Translations under genes and position numbers: made by a program
Shown: positions 8,275 through 55,363 of the stretch, piece after piece
How positions within the stretch are numbered: the stretch's first letter is position 1
How the letters are laid out: every line of letters begins with the position of its first letter
DNA from: Nocardioides marinus
GTDB taxonomy: Bacteria > Pseudomonadota > Alphaproteobacteria > Rhodobacterales > Rhodobacteraceae
Direction of reading: 5' to 3'
Assembly: GCA_019801415.1 (NCBI GenBank)
Contig: JAHVJD010000005.1
Span: 186,001-250,000, forward strand
Length of the DNA: 64,000 nucleotides
The notes under the pieces: generated by a model
The model's database searches: none
What the model was told of the DNA's origin: nothing
The model's input: the letters and a program-made list of their open reading frames with translations, nothing else

Positions 8275-8289
8275 TTAACGGAAATTTAA
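8275..8289. promoter_or_regulatory. CtrA-type box between the transglycosylase and pilin genes
   Basis: TTAACGGAAATTTAA is an exact TTAA-N7-TTAA, the consensus of the cell-cycle regulator CtrA in alphaproteobacteria. It lies 138 bases before the transglycosylase start and about 200 bases before the first pilin. In Caulobacter CtrA activates pilA; the same control here is inference. Confidence 0.55.
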
Positions 8290-9444: not shown

Positions 9445-9545
9445 CTCGCCCGCTCCACCCCACGACTTAACCGGCCTCTTCGCTGTCCGTCCCCTTGGTT
9501 CCGGACCCCGCGCGCAAGGTCGGCACGTTGAGGAAAGGAAACAAA

Positions 9546-10403
9546 ATGCGTGCAGTTTTCGGACTGGTCCTGATTGTCGGCGTGGCCCTCGCGGGCGGCG
9601 CCGTGATGATGGCGAAGAACTACATTTCGGCCTATCAGACCGAACTGGCGCGTGAACGGGCCGCGCGCGCCGAAGCCGTTCCGACGGTGGACGTTTTTGT
9701 CGCCACGAAGCCGCTCAAATACGGCGAACGCCTGTCCAAGGATGCGGTGCGTGCAGTGCGCTGGCCGCAAAACGCGATCCCGCAAGGCGCCTTTACGGAG
9801 ATCGACACCTTGTTCCCGCCGCATGCCGGCGATGACCTGCGTGTCGTGCTGCGCGCGATGGAGAAGGATGAGGCGATCCTGGCCGTAAAAGTGACCGAAC
9901 CGGGCGAAGATGCGGGCATCACGTCGCGTCTGCAACGCGGCATGCGGGCCTTTGCGATCAAGGTCGATGTGTCCTCCGGCGTGTCCGGTTTCCTGCGCCC
10001 GGGTGACAAGGTCGACGTCTACTGGACCGGCATGATGCCCGGAAGCGGCGGCAGCCACGGCGAGGTGACGCGCCTGATCGAAACGAACGTGGAACTGGTC
10101 GCGGTCGACCAAAGCGCCGGAGGCGATATCAACGAAGCGATTATCGCGCGGACCGTCACCGTCGCCGCCCATCCACGCCAGGTCGCTGCGCTGGCCCAAG
10201 CCCAAACCACCGGACGGCTGTCGCTTGCCCTGGTCGGCGCCGGAGATGACACCGTTGCCTCGGTCGTCGAGGTTGACCAGCGCACCCTTCTGGGACTGGG
10301 AGCCGTCGAAGCTCCGCAGGAAGTGGAGCAGGAAAAAGTATGTACCATCCGCACCCGTCGCGGCGCGGAAGTCGTTGAAATTCCGATCCCCTGCACCAAC
10401 TAG
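9546..10403 (+). CDS. cpaB: Flp pilus assembly protein CpaB/RcpC
   Basis: Periplasmic, inner-membrane-anchored assembly factor of the Tad pilus. The 285-residue protein starts with a membrane segment (residues 4-24, VFGLVLIVGVALAGGAVMM). A SAF-type domain follows, recognisable from VDVFVATKPLKYGERLSKDAVRAV and VTEPGEDAGITSRL (shown in part). Then comes the RcpC-like domain with GFLRPGDKVDVYWTG. The ATG at 9546 is chosen over an earlier in-frame start because AGGAAAGGA precedes it. CpaB is thought to help gate or localise the secretin encoded next. Confidence 0.92.
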   Translation: MRAVFGLVLIVGVALAGGAVMMAKNYISAYQTELARERAARAEAVPTVDVFVATKPLKYGERLSKDAVRAVRWPQNAIPQGAFTEIDTLFPPHAGDDLRVVLRAMEKDEAILAVKVTEPGEDAGITSRLQRGMRAFAIKVDVSSGVSGFLRPGDKVDVYWTGMMPGSGGSHGEVTRLIETNVELVAVDQSAGGDINEAIIARTVTVAAHPRQVAALAQAQTTGRLSLALVGAGDDTVASVVEVDQRTLLGLGAVEAPQEVEQEKVCTIRTRRGAEVVEIPIPCTN

Positions 10404-51575: not shown

Positions 51576-51959
51576 ATGCTTCCCGCAATCGCCAACGCCT
51601 CCAGCTACCACCCGGGTCTGAAACAGCTTCAAGCAGCGCGCCGTGCGCAGCTGGAAATTGCAACCACCGCTGACCAGTCGGTGGATGCAACCCGCACAAG
51701 CGGTGCGACGCAAGGCCTGGCACGCAATGTGGCGCGGGAAGAAGCGCTGAGCGCAGAGCGCCCGCAGGCGCTGACCCCGCAGCACGTCGGCCCGGCCCGC
51801 GAAGCCGCCCGCAGCGAAGCACTGGGTCTCAACCAACTGAACGGCTTCGATCTGGGCGCCTACTACCAGGACCTGATGAGCGGCATGCAGGCCGGCCCCA
51901 AGACTGCCAGCGCACTGGCAGCCGAGACCCGTTACCTCGAAGCCCGCAAGGTGATCTGA
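51576..51959 (+). CDS. Unrecognised 127-residue protein
   Basis: Unknown function. The ATG at 51576 is preceded by AAAAGG; an in-frame ATG at 51555 has no ribosome site. No signal peptide, membrane segment or cysteine is visible. It is Ala-rich and probably helical, with LKQLQAARRAQLEIATTADQ near the start and LGAYYQDLMSGMQAGPKTAS near the end. The upstream 130 bases are AT-rich with TTAACCAAACCTAAC, a weak CtrA-like match. It ends 13 bases from the stop of the convergent LysM gene. Confidence 0.6.
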   Translation: MLPAIANASSYHPGLKQLQAARRAQLEIATTADQSVDATRTSGATQGLARNVAREEALSAERPQALTPQHVGPAREAARSEALGLNQLNGFDLGAYYQDLMSGMQAGPKTASALAAETRYLEARKVI

Positions 51960-51972
51960 TCCAGGTCTCGCC

Positions 51973-53007
51973 TTATTGAAGCTGGGCCCAGAACAGCTCC
52001 AGGTGGCGTGACATAATTTCCTCGAACCGACCGGAGCGGCGCAGCGCCTCCAGGCCTGCGTTGACCCGGTAGAGATGCGTGGTGCCGCGCCAATGGTGCT
52101 TGGAGATCACCACATGCAGACTTTCCTCTGACAGCGGCTTTTCCAGCGGCACAACGCTGTCCCGCAGACCGGCACCCACCAGCGTGCTGGCACCAAGGAA
52201 GAGGTCGACAGCCACCGCGTCCACCTGCCCGGCCAGCACCATCCGAAAGCAGTCCTCTGCGGTCTGGGGGCGCACAAGGGTAACCACGCCCCGCTCCAGC
52301 CAGCGCCGGTCCGACCGGTTGAGATCATGGGTAAAAAGCCCTGCCGGACGACATAGGGTCTTGCCCAGCACATCGGCGTCGCTGTCATGGCGCATCTCGC
52401 TGCCGGCCCGTACGAACAGCATGATCGGCAGCGACATGACCGGGTCCGAAAAGTGAAAGTTGGTGCAGGCAGGGTCTTGCGGTTCGGCTTCACAATCGGG
52501 CTTCACCCAAGGAAAGCCCATGTCGAATTCCTTGGAATCCAACAGCGGGAACAGATGCCTGGACCAGTCGTCCTCCCAGGTGATCGAGCGGCTGACGGGC
52601 GCAGGGGTTACATCCAGCGCGGCATTGACCAATTCCGTCACCATGCCCTGCCCCGGCAGATTGCGGTCCGTGAACGGCGCGTAGCCGTCCCCCGTCAGCA
52701 GCTTCAGCTCCACCTGTTCCGGCGGTACTGCCGGGGCGTCAGCTTCCGCAACCTCTTGCGCACAGGGTATGAACAGCCTGCGCCCGGGCAGCACCGCCGC
52801 CCCGGACAGCCGGGACTGGTTGTGCGCATAAAGCAGCGTCCAGCGGTCGCGATCGCCGTAATGGGTTTCCGCGATCGAAAACAGCGTATCACCGGGCTGG
52901 GCCACGTAGTCGACATCGCAAATCGCGAAGGCAGCGGCGGGCGCAAGGCAGCATAGCGTCGCGACCGCAGCTAGGCGGCAGAATGTGCGTGTGATCCAGT
53001 CTCGCAT
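51973..53007 (-). CDS. LysM plus solute-binding-domain protein, copy 1
   Basis: A 344-residue periplasmic protein. After a signal peptide (to about residue 28, APAAAFA) comes a LysM domain (about 33-81) with DYVAQPGDTLFSIAETHYGD, which should bind peptidoglycan. Cysteines just before and after it (AICD, IPC) could staple it. Residues 100-340 form a family 3 type solute-binding domain: LLTGDGYAPFTDRNLPGQGM, FPWVKPDCEAEPQDPACTNF, KTLCRPAGLF and AEDCFRMVLAGQVDAVAVD. No permease or ATPase gene is near. It overlaps copy 2 by one base (TGATG). A cell-wall-fixed sensor or scavenger is the best guess. Confidence 0.8.
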   Translation of the reverse strand: MRDWITRTFCRLAAVATLCCLAPAAAFAICDVDYVAQPGDTLFSIAETHYGDRDRWTLLYAHNQSRLSGAAVLPGRRLFIPCAQEVAEADAPAVPPEQVELKLLTGDGYAPFTDRNLPGQGMVTELVNAALDVTPAPVSRSITWEDDWSRHLFPLLDSKEFDMGFPWVKPDCEAEPQDPACTNFHFSDPVMSLPIMLFVRAGSEMRHDSDADVLGKTLCRPAGLFTHDLNRSDRRWLERGVVTLVRPQTAEDCFRMVLAGQVDAVAVDLFLGASTLVGAGLRDSVVPLEKPLSEESLHVVISKHHWRGTTHLYRVNAGLEALRRSGRFEEIMSRHLELFWAQLQ

Positions 53008-54092
53008 CAGTGCCCCCGCCAGAAACGTGTCAGATGATCATCGAGAATGGCCTGATAGCGGCCGCTGTCGCGAATACCGCGCAAGCCGGTGTCGAACATG
53101 TCCAGCAGCTCCGCCGCACGGGGATGGGATTTGTGCACCACCACATGCAGACCAAGCACCGCAAGCGGCTGCGACATCTCGAAGAACTGCGCCTCGAACC
53201 CATGCTCACGCATCACGCTGCGGCCGGTGAACTCGTTTACGGCCACCGCGTCGGCGCGGCCTGCCGCGACCAGCTCGAAACACTCCCGGACCGTATGCGG
53301 TCGCAGCAGCGTTATCTTGTTGTCCGCCACCCAGCGCCGACCGCCCTGATCCAGATCGAACGTAAGGTAGCCCGCAGGGCGACACAGCGTCTTTCCTTCG
53401 ATGTCTTCGTCCCGACGAAACTCGAATGGGCGATCCTTGGGGGCAAAGAGTAGCATCAGGGTCTCGAACATCGGTTCCGAGAAGAAGAAGTTTCGGCAGC
53501 GGTAGCTGTCCGGCATCGTGTCGCACGCCGGCTTGTACCAGGGAAAACCGAGGTCCAGCAGGGCGTTGGACAGCAGGGGGTCGAAATGTGACGACCAGTC
53601 GTTGACCCAATGGATGGCATAACCCTCGGCCGGGGCAGCCTGCGCCATCGCGGCGCCCACCACCTCGGCCAGCAATCCACCACCGGGGGCCATTCTGGCG
53701 GTGAACGGGGCAAAGTCATCGCCCGTCAGCAGATTGATCGCGCCGCCCGCGGCAGCATTGGAGACGCCCTGGCTGTCGCCCGTCGAAACCGAAGTCGGCG
53801 TTGCGGCCACCGGTCCCTGAGGCAGACCTTGCGGCTGCCCATCGAGACACGGCAGCGACAGCTGCATGCCGACGCGGATACCTTCCGGCCTGGGACCGAT
53901 CGACGTCATGTTACGGTTGTGGATCGCGCGCCACTTGCCGGCATCCTGGTACATGCGATCGGCGATCCCGGACAGGTTGTCCCCCGGTTGCACGGTGTAA
54001 ACACCTCCGCAGGTGTCTGCCGCGGCGCTGGCGGGCTGGACGACACTCACCAGCAGAAGTAGCCCGAAAGCCCTGAAAACGGTCTTCATCAT
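53007..54092 (-). CDS. LysM plus solute-binding-domain protein, copy 2
   Basis: A 361-residue paralogue of the preceding product in transcription order before it. Signal peptide to about residue 24 (VVQPASAAA), LysM domain with VYTVQPGDNLSGIADRMYQD, flanked by Cys in DTCGG and LPCLD. A Pro/Ser/Gly linker (about 82-115) then the solute-binding domain: LLTGDDFAPFTARMAPGGG, LGFPWYKPACDTMPDSYRC, KTLCRPAGYL and RECFELVAAGRADAVAVNEF. The four solute-domain cysteines line up with copy 1. Its stop is shared with the start of copy 1. Ligand unknown. Confidence 0.8.
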   Translation of the reverse strand: MMKTVFRAFGLLLLVSVVQPASAAADTCGGVYTVQPGDNLSGIADRMYQDAGKWRAIHNRNMTSIGPRPEGIRVGMQLSLPCLDGQPQGLPQGPVAATPTSVSTGDSQGVSNAAAGGAINLLTGDDFAPFTARMAPGGGLLAEVVGAAMAQAAPAEGYAIHWVNDWSSHFDPLLSNALLDLGFPWYKPACDTMPDSYRCRNFFFSEPMFETLMLLFAPKDRPFEFRRDEDIEGKTLCRPAGYLTFDLDQGGRRWVADNKITLLRPHTVRECFELVAAGRADAVAVNEFTGRSVMREHGFEAQFFEMSQPLAVLGLHVVVHKSHPRAAELLDMFDTGLRGIRDSGRYQAILDDHLTRFWRGH

Positions 54093-54206
54093 TCCCTCGG
54101 AACCTCTATCCCCAGACCGAGGTCTGCCTGAGGCGGCTGGTGATTGTTTGCTGCGTCGGCCTTGCCAATGACGACCACGAGCGGGCTGAAATGGTCGGGC
54201 TTGGCG

Positions 54207-55118
54207 TCAGTTGCCGACAAACAATGCCAGGATGGTGGCTGTGTCGACCTCACCGTCGGCACGGATCAAGCTGGCTGGAACGGCGACCTTCTTTTGCTGA
54301 TAGGCTGCGTTGACGAGCTGATGAATGTAGGCCTCGGACTGCCCCTGCGCGGCGGCCGTGCGCACCATGCGAAACAGCGCGCTGCCCTCGTCGGCACCGG
54401 GCGTGGACGCGGATAGCGTCGGGCCCGGCTGAGACGGGCTGCTGCGCAGGGCAGCAAGCGTTCCGGCAGTCATCCGCGCGACCAGCGCATCGCCATCAAG
54501 CGGGGTGGCAGCAGCGGCGGCAGCCGCACCAAGGGGGACCTGGCCCTGCGGCGCGGAAGCCGCCGTCCAGGTCGCAGGCCGGGCAGTGTCGGCGACCGCC
54601 GCGGCATAGGCAGTCCCCGGCAGCGCCTGGCCGCCGGTCGGCGAGGCCGGATGCACAGCTCCAGGCATAGCCGGGACACGACTGAACTGGGCGTGCAGCA
54701 AGGCCGCCATCGCAACACTCAGCACTGCTGCGGCGAGGGACAGGCGGGACAGGTTGCCGATGCGCCCGGTCCAGCCCCGCATTCCGCGCCAAAACTGCCG
54801 GAACATCCGGCCCATGCCAAAGATCAGAGCCGCCACACCGCGCAGCGCGAGCTGAGTAATCCCGGCGACCAGATGCAAGACCGGCGATCCCGCTGGCGAA
54901 ACGTCATGCGATGCCGCGCCGGTGGCCGCAGAGGACAGCGTTGGCACGCAGGCAGGCGGCGGTGCGGCGACCACGGAACCGCCAGCGCGGTTGGGCACCA
55001 GACCGATCCGGATATGGCGCGGAGCCGTCACCCCGTCTATCCGCACACTGACCCGGCGTGCGCGGGCGGTATCGCCGTACCTGCCCACCGGTTGGGTCTC
55101 CGAATATCGTTTCAACAT
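54207..55118 (-). CDS. Unrecognised single-pass membrane protein under a CtrA-type box
   Basis: A 303-residue protein. The ATG at 55118 (MLKRYSETQPVGRYGDTARA) was chosen over a longer frame that would cross the promoter. The N-terminal 110 residues are basic and likely cytoplasmic, a membrane segment RLSLAAAVLSVAMAALLHAQ lies near 125-144, and the rest is Ala/Pro/Thr-rich. The end is a compact, helical-looking domain: FRMVRTAAAQGQSEAYIHQL then VNAAYQQKKVAVPASLIRAD. It is followed after 114 bases by the two LysM genes. No known family is recognised. Confidence 0.65.
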   Translation of the reverse strand: MLKRYSETQPVGRYGDTARARRVSVRIDGVTAPRHIRIGLVPNRAGGSVVAAPPPACVPTLSSAATGAASHDVSPAGSPVLHLVAGITQLALRGVAALIFGMGRMFRQFWRGMRGWTGRIGNLSRLSLAAAVLSVAMAALLHAQFSRVPAMPGAVHPASPTGGQALPGTAYAAAVADTARPATWTAASAPQGQVPLGAAAAAAATPLDGDALVARMTAGTLAALRSSPSQPGPTLSASTPGADEGSALFRMVRTAAAQGQSEAYIHQLVNAAYQQKKVAVPASLIRADGEVDTATILALFVGN

Positions 55119-55174
55119 GCCCTGCGCCCCTGCCCCACGTCGCGTTCTGTACTGCTCGGAATCTTCGCGTGAAG

Positions 55175-55189
55175 TTAACGATTTGTTAA
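55175..55189. promoter_or_regulatory. CtrA-type box upstream of the membrane protein and LysM genes
   Basis: TTAACGATTTGTTAA, followed by CC, is an exact TTAA-N7-TTAAC match to the CtrA consensus. It lies 57 bases before the membrane protein start, an expected distance for an activator at a promoter. No other gene starts nearby, since ileS ends convergently to its right at 55364 on the same strand. Confidence 0.62.
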
Positions 55190-55302
55190 CCACTCGAAGA
55201 AAATCGGTCAATATCCGCGCGGCGCATATGATTGTTCCGAGGGAAAACTCACCGACAGGTTGCGCAAAAGAAACACCGACGAACGAAGGACCCGGGCATA
55301 AC

Positions 55303-55331
55303 GCAAAACACCCGGCCGTGACGGCCGGGTG
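55303..55331 (-). terminator. Rho-independent terminator of ileS
   Basis: CACCCGGCC pairs perfectly with GGCCGGGTG around GTGAC; on the minus strand TTTTGCGTT follows. It lies 32 bases after the ileS stop and isolates it from the next gene. Confidence 0.82.
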
Positions 55332-55363
55332 CAGCATGTCTGCTCAGCAAGATCGGGAAGACC

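Follow-up and report, generated by a model that had tools for sequence, protein, structure and literature searches.

Obligately paired LysM proteins with a solute-binding fold in Rhodobacteraceae: a possible wall-anchored sensor linked to a membrane protein and a CtrA-type box

The stretch of Nocardioides marinus DNA analysed here (the window, 64,000 nucleotides (nt) of contig JAHVJD010000005.1, from a genome of 3.9 Mb) carries three consecutive genes, which we call A, B and C. A encodes a membrane protein, and B and C encode secreted paralogues in which a LysM domain is combined with a domain of the solute-binding protein (SBP) fold. B and C form the unit of the system and occur as an obligate pair. 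The explanation that we prefer, although we put it a little short of an even chance, is that the pair is a wall-anchored device for ligand sensing that signals to a membrane partner, A in this locus and a kinase elsewhere, and that CtrA probably acts as a repressor of the genes. The three open reading frames (ORFs) lie behind ileS in the order A, B, C at the positions given in the initial annotation. The gap between A and B amounts to 114 nt, and the stop codon of B and the start codon of C have one base in common (TGATG), an overlap that had likewise been noted.

54207-55118, minus strand: gene A, membrane protein of 303 residues
53007-54092, minus strand: gene B, secreted LysM and SBP-fold protein of 361 residues
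51973-53007, minus strand: gene C, secreted LysM and SBP-fold paralogue of B, 344 residues

The pairing of B and C was followed through their relatives. A search covered 40 other genomes, 20 of them from the same genus as the window, and B and C adjoin in 21 of 21 genomes of this genus, its own included. With a B/C profile 102 relatives were identified in named genomes, and the counts below are based on the best 80 loci (numbered with L). B and C stand side by side in 76 of these 80 loci; 74 were recognised by script and two, L101 and L104, by eye, the start of their C ORF being over-extended. The other four are L117, where the contig ends, L151, which has a tandem pair of B-like proteins, and L155 and L156, both from one metagenome-assembled genome (MAG), with a broken B and no C. 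The initial annotation had proposed to look for a constant linkage of all three genes in the Rhodobacteraceae; such linkage holds for B and C but not for A, which is found directly upstream of B in all 21 genomes of the genus and in 38 of the 80 loci. In a survey of the family with a single genome for each genus, 190 of 198 gave some match to the B/C profile, mostly to LysM only, and 30 of 198 gave a match under E 1e-50 by a reading of the listing by hand. Outside the Rhodobacteraceae, weak matches were present in 2 of 16 genomes.

B and C of the window are 37% identical. In a tree of 98 proteins from hand-picked loci the B and C proteins (29 rows each, one each per locus) fall into separate groups with support values of 94/99 and 95/78, slightly below the star of the tree tool. 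A second pair, K1 and K2 (10 rows each), likewise forms separate groups (100/97 and 100/100). Twenty further proteins are single or of uncertain place, and the long branches of L038, L172, L076 and L164 are unsure. The separate B/C and K1/K2 groups therefore point to at least two old duplications, the products of which were retained as pairs. The ratios of nonsynonymous to synonymous substitutions, determined for 10 pairs from five Leisingera loci, were 0.14-0.28 for A, 0.01-0.06 for B and 0.05-0.07 for C, and all three genes are thus under purifying selection.

The domain structure of B and C was derived from profiles and from a model. Both N termini resemble signal peptides, as judged by eye from the sequence only. 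The Pfam LysM family (PF01476) matches over its full length in B and C with scores of 20.4 and 20.3, which is 0.5-0.6 bit short of the curated cut-off of 20.9, and two L072 relatives exceed this cut-off. SBP_bac_3 (PF00497) scores 16.4 in B and 21.1 in C, below the gathering cut-off of 26.4. A profile of 37 B proteins matched amino-acid SBPs in the PDB (best E 5.2e-10) as well as solved LysM chains (E 1.6e-7 and 7.9e-7). The AlphaFold2 model of B (mean predicted local distance difference test score (pLDDT) 83.1, predicted template modelling score 0.64) was matched by Foldseek to an arginine-binding protein (E 7.5e-15). VIA placed a lysine/arginine/ornithine (LAO)-binding protein first (Z 20.4, root-mean-square deviation 3.1 over 224 residues), and sensor domains of histidine kinases were also matched (3h7m, Z 19.3; BvgS VFT2, 3mpk, Z 18.0). 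According to its model B has a type-2 periplasmic-binding fold, and by their profile matches both B and C contain a LysM domain. The description of the two proteins as hybrids of LysM and a family 3 solute-binding domain in the initial annotation is thus borne out by the Pfam matches below cut-off, the PDB profile matches and the B model. Six cysteine positions are conserved, two of which bracket the LysM domain.

53850-53999, minus strand: LysM domain of B, residues 32-81, between the conserved C28 and C82
53019-53747, minus strand: SBP-fold domain of B, residues 116-358
52765-52908, minus strand: LysM domain of C, residues 34-81 (Pfam)
52003-52704, minus strand: SBP domain of C, residues 102-335 (Pfam)

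Two positions of the expected ligand site, 198 and 286, were placed by alignment to solved SBPs. An arginine at position 198, which we take to be the contact for the α-carboxylate of the ligand in SBP family 3, is present in 25 of 29 B and 27 of 29 C proteins. Position 286 is usually an aspartate in this family, presumably in contact with the α-amino group of the ligand; here it is asparagine in 28 of 29 B and 26 of 29 C proteins and aspartate in three C proteins. The window's B has the arginine, and the window's C is unusual at both positions, with alanine for arginine and aspartate for asparagine. At the site of position 286 K1 has aspartate in 8 of 10 and K2 has glutamate in 7 of 10 proteins. 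F183-P184-W185, D281 and N286, which lie at or near the presumed ligand site, are kept in 28-29 of 29 B proteins.

The surroundings of the K1/K2 pair provide the link to a kinase. Of the 10 K loci in the tree (L031, L039, L071-L075, L077, L078 and L160), 9 have a kinase-like gene upstream of K1 and K2 within the run, the exception being L160, the contig of which begins inside an FHA gene; the Pfam family Pkinase (Ser/Thr kinase) was confirmed in all eight K loci scanned. FHA and PP2C genes occur together in the runs of L031, L039, L071, L075 and L160, and a PP2C gene also in that of L077; the PP2C of the K runs had no match in the window's genome. Dynamin-like genes stand beside L031, L039 and L075, with confirmation by Pfam for L031 only. 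The run of L031 (5950-17879; similarly L032 and L039) comprises the Ser/Thr kinase, two LysM-SBP proteins, FHA, PP2C and GTPase-like genes, and the dynamin-like genes lie on the opposite strand. An anti-phage system was considered and rejected, since PADLOC gave no match for A, B or C; the L031 kinase matches PD-T4-6 and other models, as a kinase domain might, and the dynamin-like proteins match LeoA weakly. Single LysM-SBP genes were seen in L034 (7896-13833) and L035 (7543-11114) near genes that we take to be SPFH-like; the one in L034 also has in its vicinity an OmpA-type gene and a gene that matches MotA_ExbB below cut-off.

Gene A gave no match in Pfam or NCBIfam. Its product consists of a conserved N-terminal motif, a transmembrane (TM) segment and a helical C-terminal domain, referred to as Adom.

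54696-54752, minus strand: TM segment of A, residues 123-141, hydropathy peak 1.95
54210-54506, minus strand: Adom, C-terminal periplasmic helical domain of A, about residues 205-303

The initial annotation described A as a single-pass membrane protein. A membrane location is borne out by the hydropathy; a single pass is likely but not certain, as roughly residues 81-101 of the window's A form another hydrophobic stretch (19-residue mean 1.72). Five other A proteins that were scanned had no second hydropathy peak above 1.31. A model of residues 196-303 reached a mean pLDDT of 71.9, with block means of 87-93 over about residues 246-295, and at this overall quality Foldseek found no match to the Adom model under E 0.001 in the PDB. 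In L061 the A-B-C run follows gyrB instead of ileS, so the three genes have been kept together through a change of surroundings. The gene upstream of B in eight A-less loci that were scanned is SnoaL-like in three, a hydrolase gene in two, a methyltransferase gene in one and of no clear family in two. In L151 (2067-3680) a 537-residue ORF without a Pfam match precedes the tandem B-like genes; by eye it contains a single hydrophobic segment and ends in what look like repeats, and it is perhaps another membrane partner.

Adom also occurs in fusion with LysM. An Adom hidden Markov model matched 15 of 18 LysM-bearing ORFs from 16 loci (E 7.5e-5 to 4.6e-21), the three ORFs without Adom being those in L198, L204 and L209. 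A match spanning Adom and LysM under E 1e-30 was read by hand in 24 of the 198 genera, and within the genus of the window matches to the Adom region fall at A. The occurrence of one domain both fused to LysM and, in A, beside two LysM proteins hints at, but does not prove, a link of A with B and C. All 15 loci with TM-Adom-LysM proteins have a rhodanese-like gene, immediately upstream in 14 of them and separated by another LysM ORF in L204; a search of A, B-C and K loci found none. Whether A and the TM-Adom-LysM protein exclude each other was considered and set aside, the numbers being too small.

L173, 1802-3266: TM-Adom-LysM locus with rhodanese-like gene
L174, 802-2474: TM-Adom-LysM locus with rhodanese-like gene
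L198-L211: 13 of 14 loci of the same kind

Upstream of A there is a conserved promoter region. The initial annotation reported an exact TTAA-N7-TTAAC box ahead of the first gene, and this box is present, beginning 71 nt upstream of the A start codon.

55175-55190, minus strand: CtrA-type box TTAA-N7-TTAAC, first half at the expected -10
55207-55211, minus strand: TTGAC, likely -35 element, exactly 17 nt ahead of the box

The exact motif TTAA-N7-TTAA occurs twice in the 64 kb, where 0.04 would be expected; the other copy (8275-8289) lies about 1.2 kb before an ORF (9495-10403), the start of which, we assume, resembles CpaB. The relatives were searched from -200 nt to +100 nt of the A ORF or from -400 nt to +60 nt of B. 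Of the 38 A loci, 24 have the exact motif at A and two, L108 and L110, a box with one mismatch; in the 42 A-less loci the exact motif never occurs before B (0 of 42). The box thus goes with A and not with the B-C pair. In an upstream alignment of 24 loci, hand-picked with a bias towards box carriers and not used for these counts, the box is the most conserved stretch of 16 columns. TTGAC stands exactly 17 nt ahead of the box in the window and in all 24 box loci, which places the box over the -10 position. The genome encodes CtrA (NF045991, 430.6 bits, cut-off 350). Activating CtrA sites are described near -35 and repressing half sites as overlapping -10 (PMC6180460). A box over -10 fits repression better than activation, and most likely CtrA would repress A-B-C, judged from the position of the site.

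A mechanism can be proposed on this basis. LysM would hold B and C on the peptidoglycan, and the SBP-fold domains would bind a small ligand, probably derived from the cell wall or resembling an amino acid. The state of the B-C pair would be read by a membrane protein, and B and C would not be subunits of a transporter. In Leisingera, Phaeobacter and near relatives the partner would be A, the Adom family of which is otherwise fused to a LysM domain of its own, and in the sister loci the K1/K2 pair, of the same build, would serve a Ser/Thr kinase. The A-B-C promoter would be of the ordinary TTGAC kind, its -10 overlaid by a CtrA-type box. A wall-tethered sensor, or a receptor that presents a ligand to the membrane protein, had been suggested from the outset; it remains the best reading and gains from the kinase-linked relative pair, but A is not a constant member of the system. 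We would go further only with reservation, and think it unlikely rather than likely that LysM-SBP pairs are exchangeable, wall-anchored input modules, in which two non-identical ligand-binding proteins report products of peptidoglycan turnover to a membrane output that differs between lineages, in one of them a Ser/Thr kinase together with FHA, PP2C and dynamin-like GTPases and in another a CtrA-repressed A.

Several observations weigh against a sensor pair that signals to A under repression by CtrA. A was not found adjoining B in 42 of the 80 loci (L157 has no upstream sequence). A three-gene system of fixed composition is thereby rejected, and A is not needed for everything that the pair does. 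The alanine in the window's C and the asparagine in place of aspartate in most B and C proteins mean that the ligand may differ from that of amino-acid SBPs or may have been lost. TM-Adom-LysM proteins and B-C pairs co-occur no more often than by chance, on a reading of the listings by hand only in genus G135 among about 12 B-C genera and 24 genera with the fusion out of 198. Twelve of the 38 A loci have no box (L155 is cut at the edge of the stretch). Genome-wide, TTAA-N7-TTAAC has 20 matches compared with 18 for the reversed control, which is no enrichment. Finally, the 80 loci are related and some are near-duplicates (L155 and L156 represent one MAG), so that the counts are not independent.

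The control by CtrA is open to two other interpretations. The box may belong to another regulator or be no more than a conserved -10 region, with A-B-C outside the CtrA regulon, an alternative that we consider a real one although rather improbable. It would account for the missing genome-wide enrichment and for the coincidence of the box with the expected -10. The half sites and the N7 gap, however, are both kept in 24 loci from several named genera, and CtrA is present in the genome. Eight of the 12 boxless A loci match TTGAC with a loose -10 in the searched stretch, a pattern for which there is no control. Somewhat more doubtful is activation of A-B-C by CtrA, with TTGAC incidental and the box serving near -35 as a site of activation. 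The consensus TTAA-N7-TTAA lies at -35 in most CtrA-induced promoters (PMC11264516), and in Leisingera a hexamer TAGATT follows 17 nt past the GTTAAG of the first half site. The similar hexamer of the window, AAGATT, sits two bases further away (both read by eye), and a fixed distance to TTGAC in every box locus is not what an incidental TTGAC would suggest. We therefore retain repression as the most likely direction.

Two alternatives to sensing concern B and C themselves. They might have lost ligand binding and be structural, peptidoglycan-binding proteins of the envelope or regulators of envelope enzymes, for instance at division. This we regard as unlikely: the altered ligand site, the LysM domain and the possible control by CtrA would agree with such a role, but the high conservation of F183-P184-W185, D281 and N286 in B would not. 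Still less probable, in our opinion, is a function as wall-held amino-acid scavengers that pass their ligand to a general amino-acid ATP-binding cassette (ABC) transporter encoded elsewhere. The nearest solved folds are indeed Lys/Arg/Orn-, Gln- and Arg-binding proteins and the arginine of the carboxylate site is mostly retained, but asparagine replaces the aspartate of the amino site, the two paralogues are obligate and K1/K2 are linked to a kinase. Linkage to transport genes is missing as well. No ORF of at least 100 residues in the 64 kb carries the two ABC-ATPase signatures together, which agrees with the initial annotation on the ATPase (permeases were not searched for separately). An ABC-ATPase-like ORF with both signatures occurs in 13 of the 80 stretches and within the run in none (again without a search for permeases); in 8 of these 13 stretches it is encoded on the other strand, and the nearest on the same strand is about 0.9 kb away (L105). 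Regular linkage of the homologues to ABC transporter genes, named at the outset as an argument against a dedicated system, was thus not seen, and a role of B and C as components of an ABC importer is disfavoured on linkage. The arrangement suggests a wall-anchored sensor and not a nutrient importer.

The distance from the end of ileS to A is 245 nt. The hairpin in this gap was obtained from a consensus scan only, which gave four such hairpins on the 64 kb stretch compared with 2.3 expected.

55308-55332, minus strand: terminator-like hairpin in the ileS/A gap, 11 pairs, 9 of them G-C, with a T tail

Past C there follow a small convergent gene, an O6-methylguanine methyltransferase gene and a phosphatidylcholine-synthase-like gene. 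The small convergent gene (51576-51959) has no significant family match and recurs in this position in Leisingera loci.

No description of the B/C architecture, of the locus or of its relation to CtrA in these bacteria was found in the literature, which is no proof of absence as most subscription journals were outside the search; 'LysM' is absent from the main text of CtrA papers that were searched for this term only. To our knowledge, the sensing of the state of the wall by Gram-negative bacteria is largely an open question. A LysM pair that stands beside a Ser/Thr kinase in some loci and elsewhere beside a membrane protein with a CtrA-type site offers a concrete, testable system for wall sensing, and the locus, with its exactly positioned site, is a further candidate among the CtrA targets of marine roseobacters.

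Among known systems, the amino-acid SBPs of ABC transporters (SBP_bac_3: LAO, GlnBP, ArgBP) share with B and C the fold and, for the most part, the arginine site, but B and C differ in their LysM anchor, in the asparagine for aspartate and in having no linked ABC ATPase. The TM-Adom-LysM proteins resemble A in Adom and in an N-terminal hydrophobic segment, but they carry LysM in cis and their genes are directly preceded by a rhodanese-like gene in 14 of 15 loci. Histidine-kinase sensors such as 3h7m and BvgS VFT2 (3mpk) have the same fold as B by the Z values given above; their domain belongs to the kinase chain itself, whereas B and C are separate LysM proteins. In LuxP/LuxQ a soluble binding protein is combined with a membrane signalling protein, and B and C with a membrane partner would work in the same way; here, however, the binders are two obligate LysM proteins, and A has no known signalling domain. 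MltF of Pseudomonas aeruginosa possesses an N-terminal domain that is SBP-like in fold. This regulatory domain is switched by cell-wall muropeptides (PMC10746161), which makes MltF the best-fitting precedent for sensing of wall products by B and C. The MltF domain is joined to a lytic transglycosylase, whereas the domains of B and C are joined to LysM and paired, and the A-B-C run encodes no recognised enzyme. Sensors of the SBP fold are already known, and the obligate, LysM-borne pair is a variant of them.

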